Positions 759 to 16,621 of a DNA stretch of 19,959 nucleotides are shown one piece after another (the stretch's first letter is position 1; every line of letters begins with the position of its first letter). Source of the DNA: an uncultured Sphingomonadales bacterium (GTDB lineage Bacteria; Pseudomonadota; Alphaproteobacteria; Sphingomonadales; Sphingomonadaceae). Below the pieces are notes generated by a model. That model was not told the DNA's origin and did no database searches. It was given only the letters and a program-made list of their open reading frames with translations. Where the stretch lies: assembly GCA_903958285.1 (NCBI GenBank), contig CAJBSR010000490.1:1-19959 (forward strand). Direction: 5' to 3'. The position numbers and the translations under genes were made by a program.

Positions 759-1600
759 CCTTGCGGCGCATCCACATAGGCCTGCAAGGCGTCGAACAGG
801 CCGGGCGCTTCTGGGTTCCAGCTGTGCGGCTGGCCCGTCGTGATGCCGCCATCGACGACGAAGTGCGCGCCGGTGATGAAGCCCGCTTCCTTGGACGCAA
901 GGAAGGCGACCATATTCGCAATGTCATCAGGGCGGCCGCCGCGCTTCACCGGCTGGGTGTGGTTGGAGATTTCCCAGATGATCTTGTTCGCTTCGTCGCG
1001 CCTTTCCTCTGGCACGTCCATCGATGACGCAAAGATGTTGGTCTGGATGAAGCCGGGGCAGATCGCATTCATGCGGATATTGTGTTTGGCCAGATCAGTC
1101 GCGCCGACCTTCGTCAGGTGGATGACGGCGCCTTTGGCAACCGCATAAGCCGTCGGCGAATAGCCCGCGCCCAAGCCTGCAACGCTGGCTGTGTTGACGA
1201 TGGCGGCGCCTTCACGGCCGATCATGTGGGGCACGGCATAACGCACGCCCATCGCAACAGACCGCAACAGCAGGTCCATCGTCCGGTCCCAGCCTTCAGG
1301 CTCGATTTCTTCGATGGGGGCCTTGTCGCCACCGGCGCCCGCATTGTTGAACACGACGTCGATGCCGCCCGTTTTCTCCGCGGCGAAATCCATCAGCGCC
1401 TTGATGTCGGCAGTGTTGCACACATCGGTGTGCTTGAAGAAGATTTTGCCATTGGACGTCGCGGCCAGTTCCTCGCCACCCGCAGCGTCAATGTCGCCTG
1501 CGATGACGGTGGCGCCTTCCGACGCGAACAGCAGGCAGGTCGCCTTGCCAATGCCCGATGCGGCGCCTGTGATGACGACCGTTTTGCCTGCGAATCTCAT
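755..1600 (-). CDS. SDR-family NAD(P)-dependent oxidoreductase
   Basis: This is a classical short-chain dehydrogenase of 281 residues, slightly longer than the usual 250 because of a C-terminal tail. It shows the cofactor motif TGAASGIG at 11-18, an acidic residue after the second strand (GDID near 35-38) that favours NAD(H), NNAG at 85-88, catalytic Ser139 and Tyr152-x3-Lys156, and PG at 182-183. It should oxidise a hydroxy group or reduce a ketone on a small lipid, steroid, terpenoid or acyl-CoA intermediate; the substrate is unknown. The start has a good ribosome site, AGGAGAGAG just upstream on the minus strand. It is the first gene of a leftward pair with the transporter (4-bp overlap) and is divergent from the acyl-CoA dehydrogenase pair across a 153-bp spacer that contains a candidate operator. 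Confidence 0.9.
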   Translation of the reverse strand: MRFAGKTVVITGAASGIGKATCLLFASEGATVIAGDIDAAGGEELAATSNGKIFFKHTDVCNTADIKALMDFAAEKTGGIDVVFNNAGAGGDKAPIEEIEPEGWDRTMDLLLRSVAMGVRYAVPHMIGREGAAIVNTASVAGLGAGYSPTAYAVAKGAVIHLTKVGATDLAKHNIRMNAICPGFIQTNIFASSMDVPEERRDEANKIIWEISNHTQPVKRGGRPDDIANMVAFLASKEAGFITGAHFVVDGGITTGQPHSWNPEAPGLFDALQAYVDAPQG

Positions 1601-1695: not shown

Positions 1696-1711
1696 TTGAC
1701 GCTTGCGTAAA
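1696..1711. promoter_or_regulatory. Candidate operator, copy 1 (divergent SDR / acyl-CoA dehydrogenase spacer)
   Basis: The 16-mer TTGACGCTTGCGTAAA is an imperfect palindrome with 12 of 16 positions symmetric (ACGC-TT-GCGT core). It ends 42 nt before the ATG at 1754. Related 16-mers lie at 7289-7304 and 13158-13173 at almost the same distance from rightward start codons. From memory it resembles the ACGT-WW-ACGT palindromes of MerR-family LiuR-type regulators of acyl-CoA catabolism; that assignment is inference. Confidence 0.6.
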
Positions 1712-1753
1712 GCCGCGCTGCCGACTTAGACAGGGCACTCGAAATAGGAGACG

Positions 1754-2917
1754 ATGATGACAGATCTCGAAACCTTCCGGAAGGAAGCCCGTTCTTGGTT
1801 GGAAGCAAATTGCCCGCCCGAAATGCGTCAGCCCGTTAAGGCGGATGACGACGTTTGCTGGGGTGGCCGCAACTGGGTGTTTTCGTCTCCGGCGCAAAAA
1901 CAATGGCTGGATGTCATGGCGGCCAAGGGCTGGACGGTTCCTGACTGGCCTGTTGCCTATGGCGGCGGTGGCCTTTCACCGGAACAGACTAAGGCCCTGC
2001 GGCAGGAAATGGCAAAGCTCAATTGCCGGTCTCCGCTCAACAGCTTCGGCATCTGGATGCTTGGCCCCGCACTTCTGAAATTCGGTACCGAAGAACAAAA
2101 GCTTCACTATCTCCCCCAGATCGCGCGCGGTGAAATCCGCTGGTGCCAAGGCTATTCGGAACCGGGCTCTGGTTCCGACCTCGTCTCGCTCCAGACCTTT
2201 GGCGAAGACAAGGGCGATCATTGGGTCGTCAACGGCCAGAAAATCTGGACGAGCTATGCCGACAAAGCCGACTGGATCTTCTGCCTTGTCCGCACCAACA
2301 AGGAAGACAAATATCAGGGCATCAGCTTCCTGTTGTTTGATATGACGACACCCGGTGTGACGACCAAGCCGATCCTCCTGATCTCCGGCGCTTCGCCCTT
2401 CTGCGAAACCTTCTTCGACAATGTGGCCGTGCCCAAGCACCAAATCGTTGGCGAACTCAATCGTGGTTGGGATGTCGCCAAATATCTGCTCGGGCATGAG
2501 CGCGAGATGATCTCCGGCATGGGCGGCGACGGTGGCATGGCCTCGCTCGGCTCCTTCTACGCCGATGTGCTGGCCGACAACCCCGTGCTGCGCGCAGAAA
2601 TGGCGATGTTTGAGGTCGAAAACCTCGCCTTCCGCGCCCATTCCGAACGCTTCATGGATGAATGGAAGACCGGTCGGGCACACCCCGCCTATTCCAACCT
2701 TATGAAATATGTCGGGACCGAACTGAACAAGTCGCGCCACGAACTCGTGATGGCGGCCGGTGGCTCGGATGCGCTGGAATGGGAAAGTGCCCGCACCAAT
2801 GGCGGCGCCCGTCCGCGCGCCTGGTTGCGCACCAAAGCCAACAGCATCGAAGGCGGGACGAGCGAGGTCATGCTCAACGTCGTCTCCAAACGCATTCTCG
2901 AAATGCCGGGGGCCTGA
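1754..2917 (+). CDS. Acyl-CoA dehydrogenase family protein, alpha-type subunit
   Basis: This flavoprotein should introduce an alpha-beta double bond into an acyl-CoA. Up to 387 residues contain the N-terminal helical domain, the FAD/substrate motif YSEPGSGSDL at 134-143, NGQKIWTS at 160-167 and, near the end, SIEGGTSEVM at 364-373. Compared with MCAD (IYEGT, catalytic Glu376) the Glu sits one place earlier (Glu366), as in many FadE-like enzymes with IGGGT, so the catalytic base is not certain. ATG codons occur at 1754 and 1757; GGAG at 1747-1750 lies only 3 nt from the first and 6 nt from the second, so 1757 may be the true start. It is the first gene of a rightward run and is followed after 3 nt by a second, dissimilar acyl-CoA dehydrogenase, suggesting a heteromeric enzyme. 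Confidence 0.93.
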   Translation: MMTDLETFRKEARSWLEANCPPEMRQPVKADDDVCWGGRNWVFSSPAQKQWLDVMAAKGWTVPDWPVAYGGGGLSPEQTKALRQEMAKLNCRSPLNSFGIWMLGPALLKFGTEEQKLHYLPQIARGEIRWCQGYSEPGSGSDLVSLQTFGEDKGDHWVVNGQKIWTSYADKADWIFCLVRTNKEDKYQGISFLLFDMTTPGVTTKPILLISGASPFCETFFDNVAVPKHQIVGELNRGWDVAKYLLGHEREMISGMGGDGGMASLGSFYADVLADNPVLRAEMAMFEVENLAFRAHSERFMDEWKTGRAHPAYSNLMKYVGTELNKSRHELVMAAGGSDALEWESARTNGGARPRAWLRTKANSIEGGTSEVMLNVVSKRILEMPGA

Positions 2918-2920
2918 TCC

Positions 2921-4057
2921 ATGGGACTTTACCACACCGAAGATCAGGCGATGCTGAAAGACAGCGTTGCGCCTTTCCTTGCCGAAAACGGATCGATCAA
3001 GCAGTTGCGCTCTTTGCGAGACAGCAACGACGCCACTGGCTTTGCACGTGATCTCTGGTCGCAATTTGCGGAGATGGGCCTGAACGGCATCCTGATTCCC
3101 GAAGCGGAAGGCGGGCTTGGCCTTGGCCATGTTGAAGCCGGCATCGTGCTTGAAGAAATTGGCCGCAACCTGACGCAGTCGCCGTTCCTGTCGACTGCGG
3201 TTGCCGCCGTTGAAGCCCTGAGATCGGCAAGTGCGGACATTCGCGGGCAGTGGTTCCCCAAAATCGCCGGCGGTGAGGCGGTGATCGGCCTCGCGCTGGA
3301 GGAAGGTAAGAAGCACAATCCGGCGGCGACTGCGCTTAAGGCGGAACGTTCGGGCAATGGCTTTAAGCTGACTGGCGCAAAGACCTTTGTCGTCCATGGC
3401 CATGTGGCGGACCTATTGCTCGTATCGGCGCGAACGGCAGGGGCGGCGGGCGAAGAAGCAGGCATCACGCTGTTCGCCGTACCGCGCGATGCGGCCGGGC
3501 TGACGGCCGAGGCAGACCGTCTGGTCGATTCGTCCATGTCTGCCCGCATCACTTTAGATGGCGTGCAGGTCGATGCCGATGCCGTCATTGGAGAGGTTGA
3601 TGCCGGTTGGGCGCCCCTCACCGCACTGCTCAACGCCGGACGTCTGGGCGCTTCGGCAGAGCTGGTTGGCGTCGGTACCGGCGCGATGGACATGACGTTC
3701 GATTACCTCAAACAGCGCAAGCAGTTTGGGAAGGTCATCGGCGAGTTTCAGGCGCTGCAGCACCGCGCCGCGCATCTTTATGGTGAGATGGAAGGCGCGC
3801 GTTCGATTGTACTTAAGGCGCAGCACATGCTCGACGATGGCGATCCGCGTGGAGAGATGTTCGTCTCTGCCGCCAAGGCCAAGGCGGCCAAGTCCACCAA
3901 CCTTGCGGTGCGTGAAGGTGTGCAGATGCATGGCGGCATGGGGATGACCGACGCCTATGACATCGGCCTTTACATGAAGCGCGACCGTGCGCTGAACGAA
4001 GTGTTTGGCGACCTTTATTTCCACGCCGACAAGCTGGCGAAGATGAACGGATATTGA
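2921..4057 (+). CDS. Acyl-CoA dehydrogenase family protein, beta-type subunit
   Basis: The protein has 378 residues and the acyl-CoA dehydrogenase fold. Visible landmarks are FxxxGLNGILIPEAEGGLGLG in the N-terminal domain, the central beta domain, DYLKQRKQFGKVIGEFQALQ in the C-terminal helices, and QMHGGMGMTD at 335-344. The usual YEGTSEIQ loop is absent: the chain runs RALNEVFGDLYFHADKL at the end, with Phe where MCAD has its catalytic Glu. Such divergent copies are typically partners of an adjacent subunit in alpha2-beta2 acyl-CoA dehydrogenases known from steroid side-chain degradation. The 3-nt spacing from the upstream dehydrogenase gene and the 1-nt overlap with the downstream SDR (TGATG) put it in the middle of a tightly coupled operon. 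Whether this subunit is catalytically active on its own cannot be told from the sequence. Confidence 0.92.
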   Translation: MGLYHTEDQAMLKDSVAPFLAENGSIKQLRSLRDSNDATGFARDLWSQFAEMGLNGILIPEAEGGLGLGHVEAGIVLEEIGRNLTQSPFLSTAVAAVEALRSASADIRGQWFPKIAGGEAVIGLALEEGKKHNPAATALKAERSGNGFKLTGAKTFVVHGHVADLLLVSARTAGAAGEEAGITLFAVPRDAAGLTAEADRLVDSSMSARITLDGVQVDADAVIGEVDAGWAPLTALLNAGRLGASAELVGVGTGAMDMTFDYLKQRKQFGKVIGEFQALQHRAAHLYGEMEGARSIVLKAQHMLDDGDPRGEMFVSAAKAKAAKSTNLAVREGVQMHGGMGMTDAYDIGLYMKRDRALNEVFGDLYFHADKLAKMNGY

Positions 4058-4851
4058 TGATGGATATTACAAAGCTGTTTTCGCTTGAGGGCCGCGTGGC
4101 GTTGATCACCGGCGGGTCGAAGAACCTTGGCAAACACATTGCCGAAGGCTTCATCGCGCAAGGGGCGAAGGTCTACATCACTTCGCGCAAGGCGGACTCG
4201 TGCAACGAAACGGCGGCTGAACTCGGGCCCAACTGCATCCCGCTGCCGATGGACGTTTCCTCGGTGGAAGGCTGCAAGGCGCTGGCGGCGGCTTTTGCCG
4301 AACGTGAAGAAAAGCTCGACATCCTCGTCAACAATGCCGGTGCTGCATGGGGTGCGCCGTTTGAGGATTTCCCCGAAGTGGGCTGGGACAAGGTGATGGA
4401 CCTCAACGTCAAAGGCCCCTTCTTCCTCACGCAGGCGCTCTATCCGCAGCTGAAGGCCGCCGCGTCCAAAGGGCAGCCGGCCAAGGTCATCAACATCGGG
4501 TCGATTGACGGCATCCGGTTGAACCCTTGGGAAACGTATAGCTATCACGCGTCCAAGGCGGCGATCCTGTATCTGACGAAGCGCATGGCAGCGCGCCTCA
4601 TTCAGGACCAGATCAACGTCACGGCCATCGCGCCGGGTGCCTTTGCTTCCGACATGAACCGCGCGGCGCGCGATCATGCTGATGCTGTTGCCCAGAACAT
4701 CCCGAACAAGCGGATTGGTGTTGCGGAAGACATGGCAGCGGCCGCCATCTTCCTCGCCAGCAATGCCGGCAATTATGTGGTTGGCGATACGATCACCGTC
4801 GACGGCGGTGTGGCGCACGCCAACATTGGTTCTGGCGGCATCGACGCATGA
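4057..4851 (+). CDS. SDR-family oxidoreductase (3-oxoacyl reductase / RhlG-like)
   Basis: The protein has 264 residues and is a classical SDR with TGGSKNLG at 18-25, NNAG at 92-95, catalytic Ser149, and Tyr163-x3-Lys167 in YSYHASKAA, followed by APGAF and a C-terminal VDGG. Arg44 after the second strand (ITSRK) suggests a preference for NADP(H). The general look recalls RhlG-like 3-oxoacyl reductases, but the substrate is not determined; in this operon it would fit oxidation or reduction of a hydroxyacyl/oxoacyl-CoA. An in-frame TTG at 4054 is also possible, but the ATG at 4057 (or the adjacent one at 4060) is chosen because it overlaps the upstream TGA in the common TGATG arrangement. Its own stop overlaps the next start by 4 bp (ATGA). 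Confidence 0.92.
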   Translation: MMDITKLFSLEGRVALITGGSKNLGKHIAEGFIAQGAKVYITSRKADSCNETAAELGPNCIPLPMDVSSVEGCKALAAAFAEREEKLDILVNNAGAAWGAPFEDFPEVGWDKVMDLNVKGPFFLTQALYPQLKAAASKGQPAKVINIGSIDGIRLNPWETYSYHASKAAILYLTKRMAARLIQDQINVTAIAPGAFASDMNRAARDHADAVAQNIPNKRIGVAEDMAAAAIFLASNAGNYVVGDTITVDGGVAHANIGSGGIDA

Positions 4852-5978
4852 GCGTGCAGGGGTTCGCGCAAGACCGCTTCGCAGGTGTGAAGGAGGTTCT
4901 TGCCGCGAACCTCGCCAGCGGCGCCGATATCGGCGCCTCCTTCTGCGCCACGATTGATGGGGAAACTGTCGTCTATATATGGGGCGGCCATGCCGACACG
5001 GAGAAGACCCGGCCTTGGCAATCCGACACGATCATCAACGTCTATTCGACGACGAAGACGATGACCGCGCTAACCGCGCTATTGCTGGCCGACCGGGGGG
5101 CGATCGACTTCGCCAAGCCTGTTGCGCACTATTGGCCGGAATTTGCAGCCAACGGCAAAGCGGATGTGACAGTCGCCCATTTGATGAGCCATTCGGCCGG
5201 ACTGTCCGGATGGAAGGAGCCGATTCAAAAGTCCGATTTTTACGATTGGGACAAGTGCACCAGTCTGCTCGCCGCTCAGGCGCCCTTTTGGGAACCCGGC
5301 ACCCAGCCAGGCTATCACGCTGTTACCCAGGGTTATTTGGTGGGTGAAGTCGTCCGCCGTGTGACGGGCAAATCGCTTGGCACGGTGTTTCGGGAAGAGA
5401 TTGCCGAACCCATGGGCGCTGATTTCCATATCGGGCTGCCGTCATCCGAAGATCATCGTGTGGCCGATCTTTTGCCGCCGCCGCCTTCGGCCGCCGTTGG
5501 AGCGGACGGGCCTTCGGATCTGGTAAAGAATATGGCGATGAACCCCGGCATTGACGTGCTCGAAACGCGCACGCGCGCCTGGCGCGGAGCTGAGATTCCG
5601 GCGGCGGGTGGCACAGGCAATGCGCGGTCGGTCGCGGAGATCCACACAATCCTTGCCAATGGTGGGATGGCCAAGGGCAAGCGCTTCCTGTCTGAAGCGG
5701 GATGCCGCAAACTACTGGAGTGTCAGGTGGAGGGCACCGACCTCATCCTCGGCATTCCGGTCCGTTTTGGCCTTGGCTTTGGCCTATCCGGTGGGATGAC
5801 GCCGCTGCCCAATGAGAGTTGCTGTTACTGGGGCGGTTATGGCGGATCGATCATCATCATCGATATGCAGAACCGCGCGACCTACAGCTATGTCATGAAC
5901 AAGATGGAGGGCACGACGTCTGGTGATGTGCGCGGCTTCGGTCTGGTGATGGCGGTCATGCAGGCCATGGCGGCCTGA
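4848..5978 (+). CDS. Beta-lactamase-fold serine hydrolase (class C / EstB-like esterase)
   Basis: The protein has 376 residues of the Beta-lactamase (PF00144) type. The nucleophile motif SxxK is Ser67-Thr-Thr-Lys70 in NVYSTTKTMTAL. The second motif appears as Tyr156-His-Ala in PGYHAVTQG, in place of the YxN of true class C enzymes, and WGGYGG at 328-333 takes the place of the KTG motif. These changes point to an esterase, lactonase or amidase rather than an antibiotic-degrading enzyme. No signal peptide is visible, so it is probably cytoplasmic, which also argues against a periplasmic beta-lactamase. It overlaps the SDR stop by 4 bp, so it is part of the same acyl-CoA operon and might open a lactone or cleave an ester on the catabolised molecule (inference). 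Confidence 0.88.
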   Translation: MSVQGFAQDRFAGVKEVLAANLASGADIGASFCATIDGETVVYIWGGHADTEKTRPWQSDTIINVYSTTKTMTALTALLLADRGAIDFAKPVAHYWPEFAANGKADVTVAHLMSHSAGLSGWKEPIQKSDFYDWDKCTSLLAAQAPFWEPGTQPGYHAVTQGYLVGEVVRRVTGKSLGTVFREEIAEPMGADFHIGLPSSEDHRVADLLPPPPSAAVGADGPSDLVKNMAMNPGIDVLETRTRAWRGAEIPAAGGTGNARSVAEIHTILANGGMAKGKRFLSEAGCRKLLECQVEGTDLILGIPVRFGLGFGLSGGMTPLPNESCCYWGGYGGSIIIIDMQNRATYSYVMNKMEGTTSGDVRGFGLVMAVMQAMAA

Positions 5979-6004
5979 AGAAACAAACAAAAGGGGAGAG
6001 AAAC

Positions 6005-6394
6005 ATGGATATGGTCGCACGGGTTTTGGTTGGCATCATGGCGCTGTTTTTTGGCGCAATGGGCGCTGGCTTCTGGCTGAATCTGGAAACGCAGGCCGCC
6101 ACTTTCGGCCTGCAGGGCGCTGTAGAAGCATCGAACCTTATCGGACGCGTCAGCGTGCGGGCAGACTTTGGGTCCTTCTTCCTGACCATCGGCATCCTAT
6201 GTGGCTATGCCGTCTGGAAGCGCAGCGGCAGCGCGGCGGTTGGCGCGGCGCTCCTGTTTGGCATCGCGCTTCTTGGTCGCCTCGTTTCGATTGCCCTTGA
6301 TGGCCCCGCACCGGGCGGCACGCCACCGATGGTGATTGAAGCGGTTTGCGTGGCGATCCTGCTCTGGGCGCGGAGTGTCTGGAAGAAGGCCTAG
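6005..6394 (+). CDS. Small integral membrane protein, DUF4345-like
   Basis: The protein has 129 residues, mostly hydrophobic, with four likely membrane helices near 5-25, 52-70, 77-97 and 108-125. The conserved-looking stretch GRVSVRADFGSFFL followed by a later GRLVSIALDG matches my memory of the DUF4345 family of uncharacterised membrane proteins. A strong ribosome site (AAAGGGGAGAG) lies 5-12 nt upstream. It follows the serine hydrolase by 26 bp and is probably the last gene of the rightward run. Its stop codon TAG at 6392-6394 lies inside CTAG, whose other strand supplies the stop of the convergent thioesterase gene. Function unknown. Confidence 0.8.
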   Translation: MDMVARVLVGIMALFFGAMGAGFWLNLETQAATFGLQGAVEASNLIGRVSVRADFGSFFLTIGILCGYAVWKRSGSAAVGAALLFGIALLGRLVSIALDGPAPGGTPPMVIEAVCVAILLWARSVWKKA

Positions 6395-6786
6395 CCCCGG
6401 CTTCGGTCCAGCATCACGTTGATCTGGGCCATCGCCACAGGCTTTTCGATGTCATCCTGCCAGGCAATGGCTTCGATATTGGCAATCCGCTTGCCGAGCC
6501 GTTCGATGGTTGCCCGCGCATAGGTCGTCATTTCAACAGCACCGCGCATATAGGTGGCGGTGACGTTGACGGGTTTGATGACCGGCCGGTCATCCTCCCC
6601 CAGCGCTTCTGACAGTGTCGCATAGGCCACTGTCTCCAGAAGACCGGCGAGCGCACCTCCGTGCACAAATCCGGGGCGACCGCGCACGCCATCGCTATAG
6701 GGCATGGCGATGACCAAGCGTCCGTCTGCGTCGCGTTGCTCTTCAAAGCCCATTGTCTGGGCGTAGGGCGAAAATGATGTTTTCAT
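6391..6786 (-). CDS. PaaI-family hotdog thioesterase
   Basis: This 131-residue single hotdog domain contains GFVHGGALAGLLETVAYATL at 39-58, with His42-Gly-Gly and Glu51 in the positions of the PaaI/YbgC-like HGGxxxxLxE active site. The protein should hydrolyse acyl-CoA thioesters in the cytoplasm, either releasing product or freeing CoA when the pathway stalls. Its ATG overlaps the TGA of the upstream thioesterase gene by 4 bp (ATGA), so the two hotdog proteins are co-translated and could form a hetero-oligomer, since hotdog proteins work as dimers or tetramers. It ends in a 4-bp convergent overlap with the DUF4345-like gene. Confidence 0.88.
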   Translation of the reverse strand: MKTSFSPYAQTMGFEEQRDADGRLVIAMPYSDGVRGRPGFVHGGALAGLLETVAYATLSEALGEDDRPVIKPVNVTATYMRGAVEMTTYARATIERLGKRIANIEAIAWQDDIEKPVAMAQINVMLDRSRG

Positions 6787-7220
6787 GCGCTTGCCGTAAA
6801 GAAATAGGTGCCGGCCACATGGGCGATCGGCTTTTCTGGGTCTCCATCATGGGCGTGGCCACGGATGAAAGCGATGGATTTAGTCACGTGATAGCATTCG
6901 CCATGCCCGATCACGGTGTTGCCGGGACGCGCGGGGCGAAGATAATCGATTCGTAGATCGAGTGTGGCCTGCGGTTGGAACGTCCCTGTTTTCAGCCAGA
7001 TAGACAGGCTGGTCGCCATGTCCATCAGCGTGAAAATCGGCCCCGAGGCAAGGATGCCTGAGGCGGTATCGGTCACCAATGTCTCGCTATAGGGCAACGC
7101 GAGCTCACACCAGCCCTGCCCATGTGCGTGATAACGCGTTCCAATCAACTTGTTATGGCCATTTTTCGACATGGTCTGGATCAGACGTGCCGGATCAAAT
7201 TCGGGCGGAAACTCATTCAT
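6783..7220 (-). CDS. PaaI-family hotdog thioesterase, atypical active-site loop
   Basis: The protein has 145 residues from the chosen ATG. The open frame extends further upstream to about 7343, but that would run through the candidate operator and the divergent promoter. The start at MNEFPPEFD is preferred although its ribosome site is weak (GGAG lies about 12 nt upstream). The hotdog core is visible in CELALPYSETLVTDTASGILASGPIFTLMDMATS and later LRIDYLRPARPGNTV. Asp67 (TLMD) stands where PaaI enzymes keep their acidic residue, but the usual His-Gly-Gly is replaced by Ser59-Gly-Pro, so catalysis may be altered or the protein may act with its partner. It is the first gene of a two-gene leftward unit and is divergent from the acyl-CoA synthetase gene. 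Confidence 0.82.
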   Translation of the reverse strand: MNEFPPEFDPARLIQTMSKNGHNKLIGTRYHAHGQGWCELALPYSETLVTDTASGILASGPIFTLMDMATSLSIWLKTGTFQPQATLDLRIDYLRPARPGNTVIGHGECYHVTKSIAFIRGHAHDGDPEKPIAHVAGTYFFTASA

Positions 7221-7288
7221 GCGCCGCAGTTCACTCCACTTGCTCGGGCGTTCCCTGTGAAGGACGCCAGTTGCTTTTGTCTTTGGGC

Positions 7289-7304
7289 CTAACGTAAACG
7301 TAAA
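7289..7304. promoter_or_regulatory. Candidate operator, copy 2 (divergent thioesterase / acyl-CoA synthetase spacer)
   Basis: The 16-mer CTAACGTAAACGTAAA carries two ACGT half-sites separated by AA, and its right flank AAAGC is shared with copy 1. It ends 44 nt before the ATG at 7349. Twelve of the 18 bases from 7289 to 7306 match copy 1 at 1696-1713. It is probably a regulatory site for the divergent pair. Confidence 0.6.
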
Positions 7305-7348
7305 GCATAAAGAATCGAACAAAATTCGAGAGAGGACCGTCACCCGCC

Positions 7349-8890
7349 ATGCATCCCTTTGTTCACGCGCAATCCCATCCGGACAAACCCGCTATCATCG
7401 TTGCGGAAACCGGCGAAATCCGGACCTACCGGCAGCTAGATGATGCTTCGAACAAAGTGGCGCAGTTTTTTCGTCAGCGTGGGCTCCACCATGAAGACGT
7501 CGTCGCCTTCATGCTCGAAAACACACCAGACTATTACAGCCTCACCTGGGGCGCCCAGCGGGCAGGGCTGCGCTATGTCTGCATCTCATCCCGGCTGACG
7601 CAGGATGAGACGGACTACATCCTTGAAAATTCAGGCGCGAAGATTTTCGTGATTTCAGGCGCGCTTTCGGGTGCGGCGGCGCTTCTGTCCACGCAGGTGG
7701 AGCGTTATTCAATGGGTGGTCCAGTCGAGGGCTATGGGTCGTTTGAAGATGCCGTGGCGACGATGCCGGCAGAACCGGTGCCGGATGAACGCGCGGGCGT
7801 CGATATGCTTTATTCGTCGGGTACAACGGGACGGCCCAAGGGTGTGCGTATTCCGCTTCCGGAAGACCCCGCTATTGATCAAGCTAACAGTCTTGTGGCA
7901 ATCGCCATGGGCCTGTTCCGCTTCACGCCGGACAGTGTCTATCTCTCGCCCGCACCGCTCTATCATGCGGCCCCGCTGCGTTGGTCGATGACGGTGCACA
8001 AGATTGGCGGCACTGTTGTGATGATGAAGAAGTTCGATGCCGAAGGCGCGCTTGCCGCGATTGAAAAATATAAGGCGACCTGCAGCCAATGGGTGCCGAC
8101 GCATTTCGTGCGGATGCTGAAACTGCCCGAGGACGTTCGGAAGAAGTACGACACCTCGTCGCTTAACTGCGCGGTCCATGCCGCAGCACCTTGCCCGATG
8201 CCGGTCAAGCGCGCGATGATCGACTGGTGGGGTCCGGTGCTTGAGGAATATTATGCGGGGTCCGAAGGCAATGGCTTCACCTATGTCGGCTCCGCCGAGT
8301 GGCTGCGTCTGGCTGACAAGGAAGGTGCCGGGACTGTCGGCAAGGCCGTGACGGGCATCGCCCACATCATGGGGGAAGACAATGAAACCGAGATGCCGAC
8401 GCGAAGCGAGGGTACGGTCTTCTTCGAAAGCGACAGCGTTTTTGAGTATCATGACGATGAAGAAAAGACGCAGTCGAGCCGCAATTCCAAAGGCTGGTCA
8501 ACGCTGGGTGATGTGGGCTGGATGGATGAGGACGGCTATTTGTTCCTCACCGACCGCAAGAGCTTCATGATCATTTCAGGCGGCGTGAACATCTACCCGC
8601 AGGAGATTGAAAACCATCTCGTCACGCACCCCAAGGTGCAGGACGTTGCTGTCATCGGCGGCCCGCATGAGGAGATGGGCGAAGAGGTGATCGCGGTCAT
8701 CCAGCCGGTCGACATGGCCAACGCCAATGACGCGCTGCGCGCCGAGTTGACAGACTATGCGCGTGAAAAGCTGTCGGGCGTGAAGATCCCGCGCCGTATC
8801 GACTTTCTGGCAGAACTACCGCGGCACGACACGGGCAAGCTCTACAAGCGCCTGCTGCGTGACCAATATTGGGAAAAGGCCAAGAAGTGA
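7349..8890 (+). CDS. AMP-binding acyl-CoA synthetase (FadD-like)
   Basis: The protein has 513 residues of the ANL superfamily and should activate a free acid with ATP and CoA, the entry step of the pathway. The phosphate-binding motif YSSGTTGRPKG is at 155-165. In the second half GWSTLGDVGWMDEDGYLFLTDRK contains the ribose-binding Asp and hinge region, and HDTGKLYKRLL near the end supplies the catalytic Lys497. The length is normal for medium-chain or aryl/cyclic acid ligases; no signal peptide or membrane helix is seen. The start lies 44 nt after the candidate operator. The last codons overlap the following gene by 4 bp (GTGA). Confidence 0.95.
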   Translation: MHPFVHAQSHPDKPAIIVAETGEIRTYRQLDDASNKVAQFFRQRGLHHEDVVAFMLENTPDYYSLTWGAQRAGLRYVCISSRLTQDETDYILENSGAKIFVISGALSGAAALLSTQVERYSMGGPVEGYGSFEDAVATMPAEPVPDERAGVDMLYSSGTTGRPKGVRIPLPEDPAIDQANSLVAIAMGLFRFTPDSVYLSPAPLYHAAPLRWSMTVHKIGGTVVMMKKFDAEGALAAIEKYKATCSQWVPTHFVRMLKLPEDVRKKYDTSSLNCAVHAAAPCPMPVKRAMIDWWGPVLEEYYAGSEGNGFTYVGSAEWLRLADKEGAGTVGKAVTGIAHIMGEDNETEMPTRSEGTVFFESDSVFEYHDDEEKTQSSRNSKGWSTLGDVGWMDEDGYLFLTDRKSFMIISGGVNIYPQEIENHLVTHPKVQDVAVIGGPHEEMGEEVIAVIQPVDMANANDALRAELTDYAREKLSGVKIPRRIDFLAELPRHDTGKLYKRLLRDQYWEKAKK

Positions 8891-9498
8891 GCGGCCCGCG
8901 CGTCGAGTTCTTCTTTGATTTGTCCAGCCCATGGACGCGGCTGGCCTTTGCCAATTTGGGACCGATGCTGGACCGGACAGGGGCGCAGGCTGTGCTCCGG
9001 CCCATCCTTGTCGGTGGTGTGTTCAACGCGGTCAATCCTGCGGTCTATGCCGCGCGCGAAGATGCGGGGAACAGGCGGCTCCAGCACAGCTGGAAAGTAC
9101 TCGCCGATTGGGCGCGATTGGCGGGTGTCTCGATGAACTTCCCGAGCGTCTATCATCCGGCCAAGAGCGTGAATGCCATGCGGATGGCGTGTGCGCTGGA
9201 AGACGATCAGGTGGCGTTGCGAGCGTTCACGACGGCGGCGTTTGAGAGCTATTTTGGGGCACAAGAAAATCTCGATGACCCTGACGTGCTCGTTGCAGTC
9301 GCCAATGCGGCAGGCCTTGATGGCGCCGCGGTCCGCGCGGCCTCCGTCACAGATGAAAACAAACTCCGGCTGCGCGGCAATACCGATGAACTGGTAGAAC
9401 GCGGCGGCTATGGTTCGCCCACGATCTTCGTGGACCGGACCGATATGTATTTTGGCAATGATCAGCTGCCGCTGGTCGAGGCTGCATTGAAGAGATGA
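8887..9498 (+). CDS. 2-hydroxychromene-2-carboxylate isomerase / DsbA-like (kappa GST fold) protein
   Basis: The protein has 203 residues from a GTG start at 8887 that overlaps the synthetase stop (GTGA). An in-frame ATG at 8869 would add six residues lying wholly inside the synthetase gene and is less likely. The N-terminus VEFFFDLSSPWTRLAFANL is the thioredoxin-fold strand and loop of HCCA isomerases and kappa glutathione transferases, with Ser13/Ser14-Pro in place of the DsbA CxxC, so it is not a disulfide oxidase. The C-terminal YGSPTIFVDRTDMYFGNDQLPLVEAAL matches the cis-Pro region and final helix of the family. It may isomerise a ring or double bond with glutathione as cofactor. Its position between an acyl-CoA synthetase and a crotonase suggests a role in the same catabolic route; the exact reaction is unknown. 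Confidence 0.87.
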   Translation: MSGPRVEFFFDLSSPWTRLAFANLGPMLDRTGAQAVLRPILVGGVFNAVNPAVYAAREDAGNRRLQHSWKVLADWARLAGVSMNFPSVYHPAKSVNAMRMACALEDDQVALRAFTTAAFESYFGAQENLDDPDVLVAVANAAGLDGAAVRAASVTDENKLRLRGNTDELVERGGYGSPTIFVDRTDMYFGNDQLPLVEAALKR

Positions 9499-9530
9499 AG
9501 CCCCAAAAGGGTTGTTGAGAGGACGGAAAG

Positions 9531-10334
9531 ATGAACGACCGCATTTCGATCACCATGCTGGAAGATGGCATCGCCGATGTCCGCATGACCCGTGTCAACA
9601 AGATGAACGCGCTCGATAGTGCGCAATGGTCGGCTTTGGTCGAGGCGGTTGAAACGCTCAAGGCGATGGCCGGACTGCGCGTTGTTGTTCTGTCCGGCGA
9701 AGGCCGCGCTTTCTGCGCTGGGCTAGACCTGTCGAGCATGCAATCTGACCGTGAACCCGGCGGTAGCAGTGCAGGCGGATCGCTGGCGGACCGTACCCAC
9801 GGCATTGCCAACAATGCGCAATATGCGGCTTGGGGCTGGCGCGAACTGCCGGTGCCCGTCATCGCCGCTGTGCATGGTGTGGCCTTTGGCGCAGGCAGCC
9901 AGATCATGGCCGCTGCCGACATCCGCATCGTCCACCCGGACACGCGCATCGCCATTATGGAAATGAAGTGGGGCCTTGTGCCCGACGTTGCGGGCATGCC
10001 GCTGTGGCGCACGCAGGTCGCCGATGATGTGCTGCGTGAGATGATCTACACCAACCGCGAGTTTAACGGCGTCGAAGCCAAGGAAATGGGCTTTGCCACG
10101 CACGTGTCGGATGACCCCCACGCCCATGCGATGGAGCTGGCGCGCGTGATTGCCAACAAGAACCCGCACGCCATTCGCGGCGCCAAGCGGTTGTGCAACC
10201 TGATGGGCGACGCCACCGACGCCGAACTGCTTCAGGCAGAAAGCGATGAACAGGTGCTGGTCATCCGCAAGCCCAACCAGATGGAAGCGGTGATGGCGGC
10301 GATGGAAAAGCGGAAGCCGAATTTCGCGGAGTAA
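9531..10334 (+). CDS. Enoyl-CoA hydratase/isomerase (crotonase) family protein
   Basis: The protein has 267 residues of the crotonase fold. The oxyanion-hole segments are RAFCAGLDLSS at 59-69 and HGVAFGAGSQIMAAADIRI at 115-133. Compared with rat mitochondrial enoyl-CoA hydratase, Gln124 stands at the position of Glu144, while Glu144 of this protein (AIMEMKWGLVPD) matches the second catalytic Glu164. One of the two acids is therefore missing, which fits an isomerase, a retro-Claisen type hydrolase or another crotonase rather than a standard hydratase. The insert QSDREPGGSSAGGSLADRTHGI is typical of sphingomonad and actinobacterial members. The start has GAGAGGACGGAAAG directly upstream and lies 32 bp after the previous stop, so it probably ends the synthetase operon. 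Confidence 0.92.
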   Translation: MNDRISITMLEDGIADVRMTRVNKMNALDSAQWSALVEAVETLKAMAGLRVVVLSGEGRAFCAGLDLSSMQSDREPGGSSAGGSLADRTHGIANNAQYAAWGWRELPVPVIAAVHGVAFGAGSQIMAAADIRIVHPDTRIAIMEMKWGLVPDVAGMPLWRTQVADDVLREMIYTNREFNGVEAKEMGFATHVSDDPHAHAMELARVIANKNPHAIRGAKRLCNLMGDATDAELLQAESDEQVLVIRKPNQMEAVMAAMEKRKPNFAE

Positions 10335-10340
10335 GCTTGT

Positions 10341-10531
10341 CGTCATGCTGAACTTGTTTCAGCATCCATGAACACTGCGGTGTAAAGGTTCGCGCAGAGA
10401 CGCAGAGAGCGCGGAGCGACGGACGGGGTCACCTGACGCACAGAACACGCATTGCCTCGGCGTCCTTTGCGTCTCTGCGCGAGCCATTCTTAATTGATGC
10501 TAGTGGATCCTGAAAGAAGTTCAGGATGACG
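10341..10531. repeat. Nested composite inverted repeat between convergent genes
   Basis: The outer arms are at 10341-10368 and 10504-10531 and match as inverted copies at 25 of 28 positions. Each arm is itself a small hairpin: ATGCTGAA/TTCAGCAT on the left and ATCCTGAA/TTCAGGAT on the right. The inner arms, at 10387-10406 and 10466-10485 (core CGCGCAGAGACGCA), match at 18 of 20. The element fills the gap between the crotonase gene and the convergent thioesterase gene. It resembles the repetitive extragenic palindromes that are common in sphingomonads and may end transcription from both sides. Confidence 0.8.
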
Positions 10532-10540
10532 GTGTTGGCC

Positions 10541-10978
10541 TCAGCCCGCCGTCACCAACTGCGCCGTCAATCCCTCGACAATCTCCGTCCGGAGCGGCTT
10601 CGCCTCATTGTCCGTCCGGCAGACGACGACCGTGTCGCACGTCGCGATGCACTGGCCGTTTTGGAACATGGCCTGTTCGATGGTCCAGCTGGAGGTGCCG
10701 ATGCGGCCGATGCCGGAACAGACTGTGGCGTCGGCGGGGAAGTTGCCTTCGCGCAGATAGTTGATTTCAACCGCCGCCACCATCGTCCGCTCATTGTCCG
10801 GGCGGTCGGCCCAGGGGCGGACATTGCGGTTCAATTGCACCCGCGCATTTTCAAACAGCGCCGCAAAGGCGACGTTGTTGAGGTGGCCGTTGATGTCCAT
10901 GTCCTGAAAGCGCGTTTGCGCGACCATGGTCACGGGGTAGATCGACGGATCGAGGCGGTGGGGCAAAGGTTTGGGCAT
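10541..10978 (-). CDS. 4HBT-type acyl-CoA thioesterase
   Basis: The protein has 145 residues from the ATG complementary to 10976-10978. The hotdog active-site segment RFQDMDINGHLNNVAFAALFENAR at 23-46 carries Asp28 at the position of Asp17 of Pseudomonas 4-hydroxybenzoyl-CoA thioesterase, followed by the GHxNN seen in FcbC/YbgC-like enzymes. It should hydrolyse short or aryl acyl-CoAs. The frame is open upstream to 11095, but that part overlaps the SDR gene and is not expected to be coding. A GC-rich hairpin with four T residues lies immediately before the start codon, so expression may be limited by termination of the upstream SDR transcript or may use its own promoter. It is the third hotdog thioesterase in the region. 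Confidence 0.85.
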   Translation of the reverse strand: MPKPLPHRLDPSIYPVTMVAQTRFQDMDINGHLNNVAFAALFENARVQLNRNVRPWADRPDNERTMVAAVEINYLREGNFPADATVCSGIGRIGTSSWTIEQAMFQNGQCIATCDTVVVCRTDNEAKPLRTEIVEGLTAQLVTAG

Positions 10979-11010
10979 AAAAGGCCCCGCCCGCTTGACG
11001 CGAGCGGGGC
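10979..11010 (-). terminator. Candidate intrinsic terminator abutting the thioesterase start codon
   Basis: On the minus strand GCCCCGC and GCGGGGC form a perfect 7-bp stem around a 13-nt loop, followed by CTTTT that runs directly into the ATG of the thioesterase gene. It lies 17 bp after the stop of the SDR gene at 11028. The T-run is short, so termination may be partial. Confidence 0.5.
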
Positions 11011-11027
11011 GCCTTCTGTCTGTCAGA

Positions 11028-11810
11028 TCAACGCGGGGCCATGCGGATGCCGCCGTCGAGGCGGACATCTTCACCGTTGAAATAGCCGTTTTCAATCATG
11101 CACATGGCAAGGTTGGCATATTCCACCGGGTTGCCGAGGCGCTTCGGGTTGAGCACGGTCGCACCCAGCGCATCGCGGACGTTCTGCGGCGCGCCTGCGA
11201 GCAGCGGGGTATCGAAGATGCCCGGCAGGATCGTGTTGACGCGGATGTTCTCGCTGGCGAGGTCACGCGCGATGGGGAGTGTCATGCCGACAACGCCGCC
11301 CTTCGAGGCCGAGTAAGCGGCCTGACCCATCTGGCCGTCTTCAGCGGCGACCGATGCGGTGTTGACGATGGCGCCACGCTCACCGTCTTCCATCGCAGGC
11401 AGCGACATCATGCCAGCGGCCGACTTGGCGATGCAGCGGAAGGTACCGACGAGGTTGATCTGGACGATCCAGTTGAACGCATCGAGCGGGAAGTGCTTGA
11501 TCGAACCATCTTCCTTGGAACGGCTGGCGGTCTTGATCGCGTTGCCGGTGCCGGCGCAGTTCACAAGGATGCGCTCCTGACCGATGGCGGCACGCGCCTT
11601 GGCAAAGCCTGCGTCCACCGAGGCATCGTCGGTCACGTTCACTTCGCAGAACACGCCGCCGAGTTCCTTGGCGATGGCTTCGCCCTTTTCGGTCTGAAGG
11701 TCAAAGATGGCGACCTTGACGCCCTTGGCGGCGAGCGCGCGGGCAGTTGCCGCACCAAGGCCGGACGCGCCGCCTGTGACGACGGCAGATACGGAGGAAT
11801 CGAGTTTCAT
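11028..11810 (-). CDS. Type II 3-hydroxyacyl-CoA dehydrogenase-like SDR
   Basis: The protein has 260 residues starting at MKLDSSVSAVVTGG. The frame is open further upstream, but that part crosses the inverted repeat at 11838-11923; AAAGGACC upstream of this ATG is a good ribosome site. Motifs are TGGASGLG at 12-19, Asp37 after the second strand (IFDLQ; NAD preference), NCAG at 84-87, Ser153, Tyr166-x3-Lys170 (AAYSASKGG) and PGIFDTPLL. The pattern GQMGQAAYSASKGG is characteristic of HSD17B10-like 3-hydroxyacyl-CoA / 3-hydroxy-2-methylbutyryl-CoA dehydrogenases. It would catalyse the third step of beta-oxidation, directly before the thiolase encoded upstream in the same direction, although a repeat element of about 125 bp separates the two genes. 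Confidence 0.92.
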   Translation of the reverse strand: MKLDSSVSAVVTGGASGLGAATARALAAKGVKVAIFDLQTEKGEAIAKELGGVFCEVNVTDDASVDAGFAKARAAIGQERILVNCAGTGNAIKTASRSKEDGSIKHFPLDAFNWIVQINLVGTFRCIAKSAAGMMSLPAMEDGERGAIVNTASVAAEDGQMGQAAYSASKGGVVGMTLPIARDLASENIRVNTILPGIFDTPLLAGAPQNVRDALGATVLNPKRLGNPVEYANLAMCMIENGYFNGEDVRLDGGIRMAPR

Positions 11811-11837
11811 ATTGCAGGTCCTTTCATTGATAGTTTT

Positions 11838-11923
11838 CCGCTCGCCCTGAGCTTGTCGAAGGGCTGCCCTTCCCTTTGCATATAAGCGGAAGGACGGGGC
11901 TTCGACAGGCTCAGCCCAAACGG
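11838..11923. repeat. CTGAGCYTGTCGAAG inverted repeat pair (REP-like)
   Basis: The left arm at 11838-11865 contains CTGAGCTTGTCGAAGGGC and the right arm at 11895-11923 contains CTTCGACAGGCTCAG, the inverse of the same core. Inside them CCTTCC and GGAAGG form a further inverted pair. The element lies between the thiolase stop and the SDR start, both on the minus strand. This core is very common between genes in sphingomonads and is probably a dispersed palindromic repeat; it may also weaken or end transcription leaving the thiolase gene. Confidence 0.75.
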
Positions 11924-11935
11924 AGGAAGATGTTC

Positions 11936-13108
11936 CTAGAGTCGTTCGACGATCGTGACGTTGGCGACGCCGCCGCCTTCGCACATCGTCTGGAGGCCGT
12001 ATTTGCCGCCCTTGGCTTTGAGCACGCCGAGCAGCGTTGCCATCAGCTTGGTGCCCGATGCGCCGAGCGGGTGGCCGAGCGCAATGGCGCCGCCGTGGAT
12101 GTTCAGCTTTTCAGGGTCAGCACCTGTGTGCTTGAGCCAAGCGAGGGGCACGGAGGCGAACGCTTCGTTGACTTCATAGGCGTCGATGTCGCTGATCTTC
12201 ATGCCGGCGCGCTGCAGGGCGCGGTCTGTCGCAAACAGGGGCTCTTCGAGCATGATGACAGGGTCACCCGCCGTCACCGTCAGATTGTGGATGCGTGCAA
12301 TCGGCGTCAGGCCATAGGTCTTGAGCGCCTCTTCCGACACGATCATGACCGCCGAAGACCCGTCGCAAATCTGCGAGGAGGACGCGGCGGTGAGCGAACC
12401 GCCTTCCTGCAACAGTTTCACGCCCGCAATGCTTTCCAGCGTCGCGTCAAAGCGGATGCCTTCATCGACATTGTGCTGGATTACGCCTTCGGGGGTTTCG
12501 ACGTCGAGCACGACGAGCTCATCGTTGAACATGCCGGCTTTGGTTGCGGCGATTGCGTTCAGGTGGCTCTTGAGCGCGAACTGGTCGAGATCATCCTTGG
12601 AAAAGCCATGCTTCTTCACGATCATTTCAGCGCCCATGAACTGGCTGAACATGATGCCGGGGTACTTCTCTTCAAGGCGCGGCGACTTATAGTGGCCGAG
12701 ACCTTCCTTCATGTGGAACATCGCGTTGGAGCCCATCGGCACGCGCGTCATCGATTCCACGCCCGAGGCGATCACGACATCCATCGTGCCGGACATGACG
12801 GCCTGCGCTGCAAACTGCATCGCCTGCTGGGAAGAGCCGCACTGGCGGTCAATGGTGACGGCAGGCACGCTGTCCGGAATGTTCTTGGCAGCAAGTACGG
12901 CGTTGCGGCCGACCTGCATGGCCTGCTGGCCTGCCTGCGTCACGCAGCCCATGATAACGTCGTCGATCTTCGCGCCGTCCATGCCGGTGCGGGCGACAAG
13001 CGTATCGAGTGTTGCCGCGGCGAGATCGACGGGGTGCCAGCCGGCAAGTTTCCCGTTGCGGCGGCCGCCGGCAGTCCGGACAGCGTCAACAATATAGGCA
13101 GTGGCCAT
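11936..13108 (-). CDS. Acetyl-CoA C-acyltransferase (thiolase)
   Basis: The protein has 390 residues, the normal length of degradative thiolases. The acyl-binding Cys90 lies in DRQCGSSQQA, the catalytic His346 in GGAIALGHPLGASG and the second Cys376 in MCEGGGVAN; NEAFA is also present. It should cleave a 3-ketoacyl-CoA to acetyl-CoA (or propionyl-CoA) and a shortened acyl-CoA, the last step of a beta-oxidation cycle. The start MATAYIVDAVRT is chosen over the upstream in-frame TTG because AGAGGA lies 8 nt before it. It is divergent from the nitroreductase gene, with a candidate operator in the spacer, and it heads the leftward run with the 3-hydroxyacyl-CoA dehydrogenase-like SDR. Confidence 0.95.
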   Translation of the reverse strand: MATAYIVDAVRTAGGRRNGKLAGWHPVDLAAATLDTLVARTGMDGAKIDDVIMGCVTQAGQQAMQVGRNAVLAAKNIPDSVPAVTIDRQCGSSQQAMQFAAQAVMSGTMDVVIASGVESMTRVPMGSNAMFHMKEGLGHYKSPRLEEKYPGIMFSQFMGAEMIVKKHGFSKDDLDQFALKSHLNAIAATKAGMFNDELVVLDVETPEGVIQHNVDEGIRFDATLESIAGVKLLQEGGSLTAASSSQICDGSSAVMIVSEEALKTYGLTPIARIHNLTVTAGDPVIMLEEPLFATDRALQRAGMKISDIDAYEVNEAFASVPLAWLKHTGADPEKLNIHGGAIALGHPLGASGTKLMATLLGVLKAKGGKYGLQTMCEGGGVANVTIVERL

Positions 13109-13157
13109 GTCCAAAATCCTCTCCAAAGGGGGTCAATTCTGAAATCCCTTGCGCAAA

Positions 13158-13173
13158 TTGACGTTAACGGCAA
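13158..13173. promoter_or_regulatory. Candidate operator, copy 3 (divergent thiolase / nitroreductase spacer)
   Basis: The 16-mer TTGACGTTAACGGCAA is the most symmetric of the three copies, with 14 of 16 positions palindromic around TTAA. It ends 43 nt before the nitroreductase ATG and begins 50 nt upstream of the thiolase ATG. Like the other two copies it lies in a divergent spacer of the acyl-CoA region. Confidence 0.65.
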
Positions 13174-13216
13174 GGGAAAGTTGCGCAACAAAATCACCTT
13201 CGCAGGGACCCAGCAG

Positions 13217-13882
13217 ATGAATGTTTCCGAAGCCGTAGAGTATCGCCGCTCCGTCAGGGGCTTCCTCGATAAGCCGGTGGATCCCGCACTGGTGAAGGAC
13301 GTTGTGGAGCGCGCCTCCCGCGCCGCTTCCGGCGGCAATCTCCAGCCCTGGCACGTCGACATTGTCCAGGGTGATTCGATGGCTAGGCTTAAAGGCATCA
13401 TGGCGGAAAAGATCGCCAATCGGGAAAGCGAGATGCCCGAATATGCGATCTACCCCGCAGGGCTGACAGACCCATGGGAAGGCCGCCGGGCCGAAGTGGG
13501 CGAGATGCTCTACGGTGCGCTCAACATCCCGCGGGAGGACAAGAAGGCGCGCGCCATGTGGTTTGCCCGCAACTTCCAGTTTTTCGGCGCCCCCGTCGGC
13601 CTGTTCGTCTCACTCGACCGGCAAATGGGCCTGCCGCAATGGGCGGATGCCGGCGCGCTGCTCAATTCAATCATGCTGCTCTTGTGTGAAGCTGGGTTGG
13701 ACAGCTGCCCGCAAGAATGCTGGGCGGTCTACCCCAAAACCATCGGCAGCTTCCTTGGCCTGCCGGACAACCGCATTATGTGGACGGGTATGTCGATCGG
13801 CTACAAGGACCCCAATGATCCCGCCAACAGCCTGCGCGCCAACCGCGCGTCCTCAGAAGAATGGCTGGCAATCCACGACTGA
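13217..13882 (+). CDS. Nitroreductase-family FMN oxidoreductase
   Basis: The protein has 221 residues. The N-terminus VSEAVEYRRSVRGFLDKPV followed by ASRAASGGNLQPWHVDIV is the FMN-binding signature of the nitroreductase family (RRSxRxF and SxxNxQPW). Later DAGALLNSIMLLLCEAGLDSCPQE and SIGYKDPNDPANSLR match the C-terminal FMN and dimer-interface segments. Such enzymes reduce nitroaromatics, quinones or enones with NAD(P)H; in catabolic clusters they may act as ene-type reductases or dehydrogenases, so the physiological substrate is open. The start at 13217 follows AGGGA with reasonable spacing; the long open frame that continues upstream of it is antisense to the thiolase and is not used. It is probably controlled by the operator shared with the thiolase gene. 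Confidence 0.92.
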   Translation: MNVSEAVEYRRSVRGFLDKPVDPALVKDVVERASRAASGGNLQPWHVDIVQGDSMARLKGIMAEKIANRESEMPEYAIYPAGLTDPWEGRRAEVGEMLYGALNIPREDKKARAMWFARNFQFFGAPVGLFVSLDRQMGLPQWADAGALLNSIMLLLCEAGLDSCPQECWAVYPKTIGSFLGLPDNRIMWTGMSIGYKDPNDPANSLRANRASSEEWLAIHD

Positions 13883-13957: not shown

Positions 13958-14043
13958 GGACAGGTGGCCGAGTGGTTAAAGGCAGCAGACTGTAAATCTG
14001 CCCGCGCAAGCGTACGCTGGTTCGAATCCAGCCCTGTCCACCA
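13958..14043 (+). tRNA. tRNA-Tyr (anticodon GUA)
   Basis: The 7-bp acceptor stem GGACAGG/CCTGTCC is closed at 13958-13964 and 14033-14039, with discriminator A14040 and an encoded CCA at 14041-14043. The anticodon stem GCAGA/TCTGC encloses the loop CTGTAAA with anticodon GTA at 13992-13994. A variable arm (CCGCGCAAGCG) marks a class II tRNA, as expected for bacterial tRNA-Tyr. The T arm has GGTTCGAATCC. It lies just upstream of an integrase gene, and its 3' end is the likely integration site of the element to its right. Confidence 0.97.
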
Positions 14044-14156
14044 AATTCCTATACGGGGATGTTCGCTGAAATTCGTAGAAATCCCAGAAATCATAGCGTA
14101 TTGTCACCGCAATCGTCCCCCTGCGTCCGCTGTTGTTTGCCTGCAACCGGAGCAGA

Positions 14157-14237
14157 GTGTGGGGGTAATGTGGGGGTAAATCGACTTACCCCCACATATT
14201 TACCTCTCGAAACCGGAGGGGAAAGTGTGGGGGTAAG
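14157..14237. repeat. GTGTGGGGGTAA repeats, probable integrase arm-type sites
   Basis: The 12-mer GTGTGGGGGTAA occurs at 14157-14168 and 14225-14236. TGTGGGGGTAA is at 14169-14179, and an inverted copy, TTACCCCCACA, is at 14186-14196. They fill the 80 bp before the integrase gene, the last one ending 4 nt before its ATG. P4-type integrases use an N-terminal domain to bind such short repeated arm sites next to att; that function is inferred here. Confidence 0.65.
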
Positions 14238-14240
14238 AGG

Positions 14241-15490: not shown

Positions 15491-15493
15491 GCC

Positions 15494-16618: not shown

Positions 16619-16621
16619 GGT

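Follow-up and report, generated by a model that had tools for sequence, protein, structure and literature searches.

What reads the three similar 16-nucleotide (nt) palindromes that lie between divergent genes in an acyl-CoA region of sphingomonad DNA? The region belongs to a stretch of 19,959 nt (hereafter the window), contig C490 (CAJBSR010000490.1) of a 593-contig, 2.98-Mb draft assembly of an uncultured Sphingomonadales bacterium (GCA_903958285.1). A sequence-only reading of the window had noted the palindromes and proposed that a distant regulator of the LiuR type, in the MerR family, controls them. Its observation is confirmed, and its interpretation is, overall, supported. The palindromes are very probably operators of a single MerR regulator, the predicted sphingomonad orthologue of LiuR encoded on contig C495, which would repress acyl-CoA genes.

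The palindromes and their copies across genomes

Site 1 (TTGACGCTTGCGTAAA, 1696..1711) lies between a short-chain dehydrogenase (SDR) gene and an acyl-CoA dehydrogenase gene, site 2 (CTAACGTAAACGTAAA, 7289..7304) between thioesterase and CoA ligase genes, and site 3 (TTGACGTTAACGGCAA, 13158..13173) between thiolase and nitroreductase genes; none is assigned a strand. These coordinates agree with those first reported, as do the distances of 42, 44 and 43 nt from the ends of the sites to the ATG codons at 1754, 7349 and 13217. All three spacers are divergent, as had been claimed, provided for site 2 that the thioesterase starts at the inner ATG at 7218-7220, from which its relatives align, and not at the GTG at 7343 of the longest open reading frame (ORF). 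The near-constant distance had been taken as an argument against chance, and this part fails: over 42 target sides, with start codons chosen by the analyst, the spacing ranges from 13 to 95 nt (30 within 20-50 nt) and drifts in relatives, so that the agreement in the window is coincidental.

The search pattern, TTKACGTWWACGTMAA, is a LiuR-like consensus compatible with the three window sites. At up to 3 mismatches it has four matches in the window versus 0.23 expected, a number reached by none of 200 shuffles; the fourth (position 4397, 3 mismatches) is within a coding region. A non-circular matrix, built from 31 sites of two other genera, ranks the window sites first, second and third (scores 26.3, 18.2, and 16.5), followed by position 4397 at 11.8 and then by 5.9. 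Across 300 first-order Markov windows, the mean maximum score was 6.5 and the mean count at or above 16.5 was 0.0. The short core ACGYWWRCG was rejected as a search pattern, with 6 matches on both strands versus 2.55 expected and 9 of 200 shuffles reaching 6; one of its matches is inside a tRNA-Tyr gene.

A comparison of orthologous spacers had been suggested as a check, and in related sphingomonads the palindrome is kept. When the window is aligned with five or six relatives, 13, 13, and 15 of the 16 columns are invariant in sites 1, 2, and 3, versus 62/137, 28/113, and 24/92 columns outside the site in the respective spacers. No other 16-nt stretch of spacer 2 is equally conserved; spacer 1 has three such stretches, two of them away from the site, and spacer 3 has eight, all overlapping the site. 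Site 3 carries one mismatch in all five syntenic relatives, and site 1 two mismatches in four of five. In locus L037, site 1 has decayed to 4 mismatches (TTGACGCTTGCGGAAG) and sites 2 and 3 are retained. Site 2 is not general to the ligase: among 78 ligase loci scored, it is found at up to 2 mismatches in nine (L033-L037, L061, L062, L072, L091), which include the six nearest, and the palindrome is absent from Sphingopyxis loci. Nineteen of the 78 (Sphingopyxis-type, within L038-L058) lack the palindrome; what they have in common is a different element, TTGACCRAWAGTTTC, located 50-60 nt ahead of the start. Around site 3, a second, off-centre inverted repeat, CCCTTGC...GCAAGGG (13146..13176, no strand assigned), overlaps the palindrome and is largely kept in the spacer alignment; it could be the site of another regulator.

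A scan of the whole assembly at up to 2 mismatches returned 18 overlapping forward matches, representing 17 distinct places, and 2 matches to the reversed pattern, which served as control. The sequence-only reading had suggested such a scan, and the motif does adjoin acyl-CoA genes and one MerR gene: 12 of the 17 places, window sites included, are beside acyl-CoA-type targets or the regulator itself. Outside the window, these neighbours are an electron-transfer flavoprotein (ETF), an acyl-CoA dehydrogenase/MFS site, MerR, an AMP-binding ligase, two enoyl-CoA hydratases, a further acyl-CoA dehydrogenase, MaoC, and a thiolase, the genes at the C75 and C343 sites being assigned through their counterparts in G059, a genome of the same genus. 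For 15 of these 17 places, G059 has a site at the orthologous position; of the remaining two, one gave no match and the other a match that did not cover the site. At up to 1 mismatch, G059 has 13 matches versus 0 in the control. The C343 site adjoins a MarR gene, but behind the orthologous G059 site (L149) lies an acyl-CoA dehydrogenase gene. For G059, G122, and G215, genes were mostly assigned functions by eye from their translations, and in the latter two genomes the loci of 16 of 31 sites were inspected. One G059 site (L148), a single letter off perfect, lies between a polyhydroxyalkanoate (PHA) synthase gene (PhaC_N) and a CaiB/BaiF-like CoA-transferase gene, the latter recognized by eye; it possibly links acyl-CoA breakdown with storage.

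Motif copies also follow the C495-type MerR gene. A survey of the order covered 246 genomes, searched for the MerR protein and for the motif at up to 1 mismatch. Within the window's family f1, taken to be Sphingomonadaceae, the gene was scored as present at E of at most 1e-40 (138 genomes) and as absent at E above 1e-30 or with no match (22), with three genomes in between. Genomes with the gene have a mean of 4.00 sites (control 0.25), and 130 of them have at least one; genomes without it have a mean of 0.32 (control 0.27). Copy number varies from 0 to 17 among relatives holding the gene. In genus g12, the site is absent from all four genomes that lack the gene and occurs at least once in 14 of the 15 that hold it; in genus g15, the four genomes lacking it have 1, 0, 1, and 0 sites.

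The MerR gene on contig C495 and its relation to LiuR

Control by a distant gene had been predicted, and a candidate was located on C495, behind its own palindrome. This MerR gene (C495:695-1108, minus strand) encodes 137 amino acids that score over the Pfam cut-offs for MerR_1, MerR-DNA-bind, and MerR; the perfect palindrome TTTACGTATACGTAAA stands 13 nt before its start, and an acyl-CoA dehydrogenase gene lies downstream. The assembly has three MerR_1 genes, on C495, C304, and C348. The other two were rejected as the regulator: the C304 protein is nearest to CadR/CueR models, below their cut-offs, the C348 protein matches no NCBIfam model at 1e-10, and both contigs are without a listed site. 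Among the 30 best-scoring sphingomonad orthologues, every gene is preceded within 200 nt by a site with no more than 2 mismatches (none in 5 cases, one in 23, two in 2) and has an acyl-CoA dehydrogenase neighbour.

The regulator's own sites (L113-L142) are mostly one letter off the consensus (23/30), as a weaker autoregulatory site would be. In other families (G002, G007, G010, G014, G017, G043, G058, G067), two palindromes upstream of merR overlap, offset by 6 bp, so that three half-sites follow one another, and merR of the window genome has a weaker form of this arrangement (C495:1122 and 1128).

The metal-responsive MerR activators carry a pair of metal-binding cysteines in the C-terminal part. 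The 30 sphingomonad proteins share a single conserved cysteine, Cys 101 (30/30), with no second one. Models of these activators (CueR, ZntR, CadR) are not matched either, the best ZntR models giving 62.9 and 62.7 bits versus cut-offs of 143 and 168. Cys 101 (P0001) is not common in other relatives, and it might matter for sensing.

The likeness of the palindromes to LiuR-type sites, proposed in the sequence-only reading, is supported by the context of MerR relatives and by the palindrome that they share. A survey of the phylum covered 150 genomes and found a relative at E of at most 1e-15 in 54. All 20 loci from outside the class (from genomes taken as beta- or gammaproteobacteria) were fetched: an isovaleryl-CoA-dehydrogenase-like (IVD-like) gene with at least 69% identity lies within 6 kb in 19, an MCC-beta-like carboxyltransferase gene is present in 16, and a site at up to 1 mismatch occurs within 250 nt upstream of the MerR domain in 19. 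Because these relatives mostly stand by liu genes behind the same palindrome, they were identified as LiuR by context. Of the 29 alphaproteobacterial genomes outside the order with a hit, 18 had their loci fetched; 14 of these loci share the acyl-CoA dehydrogenase neighbour with the window genome, and upstream sites with no more than 2 mismatches are present in 10. In a tree with few columns, a very distant outgroup, and deep forks without resolution, the 30 sphingomonad proteins group together in a single clade (98/93) within the alpha group, and the outside-class proteins come next to it. Mean identity to the outside-class proteins is 59% for the helix-turn-helix (HTH, residues 18-55) and 23% for residues 88-130. 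Orthology of the C495 protein to LiuR is thus supported by gene context and by the tree, in an alignment that contains no named LiuR sequence. Weaker relatives in G019 and G025, family genomes without an orthologue, fall elsewhere in the tree and have no site (5 mismatches). Five genomes of the alphaproteobacterial family f19 (L208-L211, L215) carry two neighbouring MerR genes of the LiuR kind, the second copies forming their own clade.

The sequence-only reading had likened the sites to those of regulators of branched-chain as well as fatty acyl-CoA catabolism. Ahead of the best liuA- and liuB-like genes of G000, G059, G122, and G215, the 9-15 kb stretches that were read contain no site even with 3 mismatches allowed; a branched-chain role is therefore not supported here, and the liu genes were rejected as expected targets. 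More distant acyl-CoA dehydrogenases (37% identity class) do carry the site (L223, L224, L229).

LiuR orthologues of alphaproteobacteria were reportedly assigned to fatty-acid degradation by Kazakov et al. in 2009, which resembles the present system in function. The LiuR regulon for branched-chain amino acid utilisation in Proteobacteria is alike in its orthologous regulator, the same kind of palindrome, and an autoregulatory site. However, the sphingomonad targets are ETF, acyl-CoA dehydrogenases, ligases, hydratases, thiolases, and some unrelated genes, and the liuA- and liuB-like genes of the four genomes are left without a site. LiuR is tabulated under branched-chain amino acids for 103 genomes in 15 taxonomic groups, with 104 regulons and 16 regulogs given in the text (PMC5343134). 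In R. rubrum, too, an ILV box precedes the gene of LiuR itself (Rru_A1994; PMC7238569). The FadR, PsrA, and FadP regulons similarly place one regulator over dispersed fatty-acid genes, but they are set apart by protein family, FadR being a GntR protein and PsrA and FadP TetR proteins according to the table (PMC5343134). The palindromes described for another TetR protein are unrelated (PMC12882949). In the literature searched, with RegPrecise outside its scope, no paper on the motif or on a LiuR regulon in sphingomonads was found, and the three exact 16-mers appeared in no paper. Overall, the kind of system is already known; in sphingomonads the targets appear to be wide and the leucine genes seem to be left out.

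Proposed repression and the range of targets

Computation shows the motif, its conservation, the spread of sites, the orthology, the co-occurrence, and the autoregulatory site, whereas we infer repression, dimer binding, and an acyl-CoA effector. Most likely, transcription is blocked by a regulator dimer bound to the 16-bp site. The first half-site, TTGACG-like, falls in many targets at the place expected of a −35 box, with a −10-like hexamer about 17 nt further on, so that binding would cover the promoter. Both half-sites are read identically in the outward direction, which could let a single dimer shut down the two divergent promoters. An acyl-CoA intermediate, our guess for the effector, would release the regulator and thereby induce dehydrogenases, ligases, hydratases, thiolases, and the electron-transfer flavoprotein all at once, along with the regulator itself. 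Overlap of the operator with the −35 box is moderately supported. Hexamers resembling a −10 box are favoured at 16-18 nt beyond the first half-site (p 0.0005 versus shuffled tails, 41 sides, of which 5 have strong −10 matches) and on the target side above the gene-less side (p 0.0002, 26 one-sided sites), evidence that is only moderate because the spacing was noticed by eye before the test and the gene-less side is often coding.

There is a sizeable minority chance that only one side of each spacer (dehydrogenase, ligase, thiolase) is regulated, the nitroreductase and the other divergent genes being bystanders, which would modify rather than replace the explanation above. The nitroreductase had been counted as part of the regulon. 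It was sought in 149 family genomes, 87 of which have a match; among the best 30 loci, 5 of the 7 that have a thiolase next to the nitroreductase carry the site, versus 1 of the 23 that do not. The site is kept in the window and five syntenic relatives, at 42-77 nt from the nitroreductase in relatives that retain it. Among the 30 best relatives, though, it follows the divergent thiolase, and the nitroreductase may be a bystander of gene layout. Two points argue for regulation of both sides: the palindrome is symmetric, and the one thiolase-less nitroreductase locus with a site (L248) is divergent from an SDR gene of the same set.

We consider it improbable that the C495 protein binds these sites as a classical MerR activator, reshaping promoters with over-long −35/−10 spacing. 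MerR-family proteins are classically activators whose operator lies inside a −35/−10 spacer of 19-20 nt, and the nearest NCBIfam models of the protein are ZntR, CueR, and MerR, all far below cut-off. The operator here instead appears to lie over the −35 position with a normal 17-nt spacer, and many sites are only 13-31 nt before the start codon. Repression by the LiuR orthologue is proposed from this operator position and from the description of LiuR in Shewanella as a MerR-family repressor (PMC3223726).

Still less credible is recognition of the palindrome by some other regulator (TetR, GntR, or a second MerR-type protein), with the C495 gene merely one of its targets. A regulator gene can be the target of a different protein, and a MarR gene adjoins the C343 site; but motif copy number follows the C495-type gene, also within genus g12, the same palindrome precedes MerR relatives in other classes, and the other two MerR_1 genes are on contigs that lack a listed site. 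That the palindromes are chance or plain −35 boxes that bind no regulator is scarcely conceivable: the half-site TTGACG is indeed identical to the −35 consensus, and matches to the short core by itself come close to chance in the window, but both halves are conserved, the assembly holds few matches to the reversed pattern, and copy number tracks a single gene.

Several results, besides the by-eye origin of the −10 spacing, weigh against a single LiuR-like repressor of acyl-CoA genes. Five of the 17 places are not beside acyl-CoA genes; their neighbours are an aldehyde dehydrogenase, two amidohydrolases, a flavin monooxygenase, and a TonB receptor/GTP cyclohydrolase pair. Of the window sites, two carry 2 mismatches to TTKACGTWWACGTMAA, and at that limit the control in G059 is not low (21 matches versus 9). 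Within the family, when up to 1 mismatch is allowed, 8 of the 138 genomes that hold the gene lack a site, and 5 of the 22 without it have one or two. In the other families of the order, where presence was set at E of at most 1e-30, the excess with the gene is weaker (2.33 sites, control 1.41, n = 64; without the gene 0.74, control 1.63, n = 19). The Mann-Whitney p-values for copy number versus gene, 4e-11 and 7e-7, are too generous, because the cut-offs were chosen with the table already in view and because of the relatedness of the genomes. Upstream sites at up to 2 mismatches are missing from 8 of the 18 alphaproteobacterial relatives outside the order, and the assembly itself is a draft, 91.1% complete and 4.29% contaminated.

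A bolder version of the LiuR explanation comes close to an even prospect, and we offer it tentatively. The sphingomonad orthologue would have dropped the leucine genes and become a general switch of acyl-CoA catabolism, reaching ETF, PHA synthase, GTP cyclohydrolase, and nitroreductase; within one family, strong sites number from 0 to 17 per genome. The palindrome would double as two outward −35 boxes, a single dimer closing both divergent promoters, and the kept HTH together with the strongly diverged C-terminal part would mark a changed effector. For sphingomonad acyl-CoA catabolism, the analysis yields a candidate regulator and a site matrix, along with a list of some 17 to 21 promoters per genome that can be put to the test. 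It also provides a usable case of regulon turnover, in which the same protein line and DNA site serve different genes and motif copies vary from none to 17 among gene holders.

Genes around the sites in the window

The leftward target of site 1 is a short-chain dehydrogenase gene (755..1600, minus strand, Pfam), which starts 95 nt from the site and is followed by an MFS transporter gene (3-758). Its rightward target is an acyl-CoA dehydrogenase gene (1754..2917, plus strand, Pfam and NCBIfam), for which the nearest curated model is PimC, below cut-off. Genes for a second acyl-CoA dehydrogenase, an SDR, a beta-lactamase-family protein, and a DUF4345 protein follow (2921..6394, plus strand, Pfam); judged by spacing alone, they may share an operon with the first dehydrogenase.

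To the left of site 2 are two 4HBT thioesterase genes (6391..7220, minus strand, Pfam), 6783-7220 first and then 6391-6786, the start being 68 nt from the site. To the right is a FadD4-like acyl-CoA ligase gene (7349..8890, plus strand, Pfam), which gives 596.7 bits with the NCBIfam FadD4 model, below the cut-off of 850; genes for a DSBA-family protein and an enoyl-CoA hydratase come after it (8869..10334, plus strand, Pfam). Leftward of site 3, a thiolase (acetyl-CoA C-acyltransferase) gene (11936..13108, minus strand, NCBIfam PRK06504 over cut-off) starts 49 nt from the site. It is followed by an SDR gene (11028..11810, minus strand), matched by Pfam on a longer ORF and given a start at ATG 11810 as in the L248 relative. 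The rightward target of site 3 encodes a nitroreductase-family protein (13217..13882, plus strand, Pfam).

The statement that no regulator is encoded in the window holds for MerR, but the window does encode an HTH_17 protein (16622-17101, minus strand) beside recombinase genes. The last 16-30 nt of the tRNA-Tyr gene have no repeat elsewhere in the window. From 13958 to 17101, this tRNA-Tyr gene is followed by recombinase genes at 14241-15467 (Arm-DNA-binding domain) and 15494-16618 (minus strand) and then by the HTH_17 gene, and the whole looks like an integrated element or its remains.

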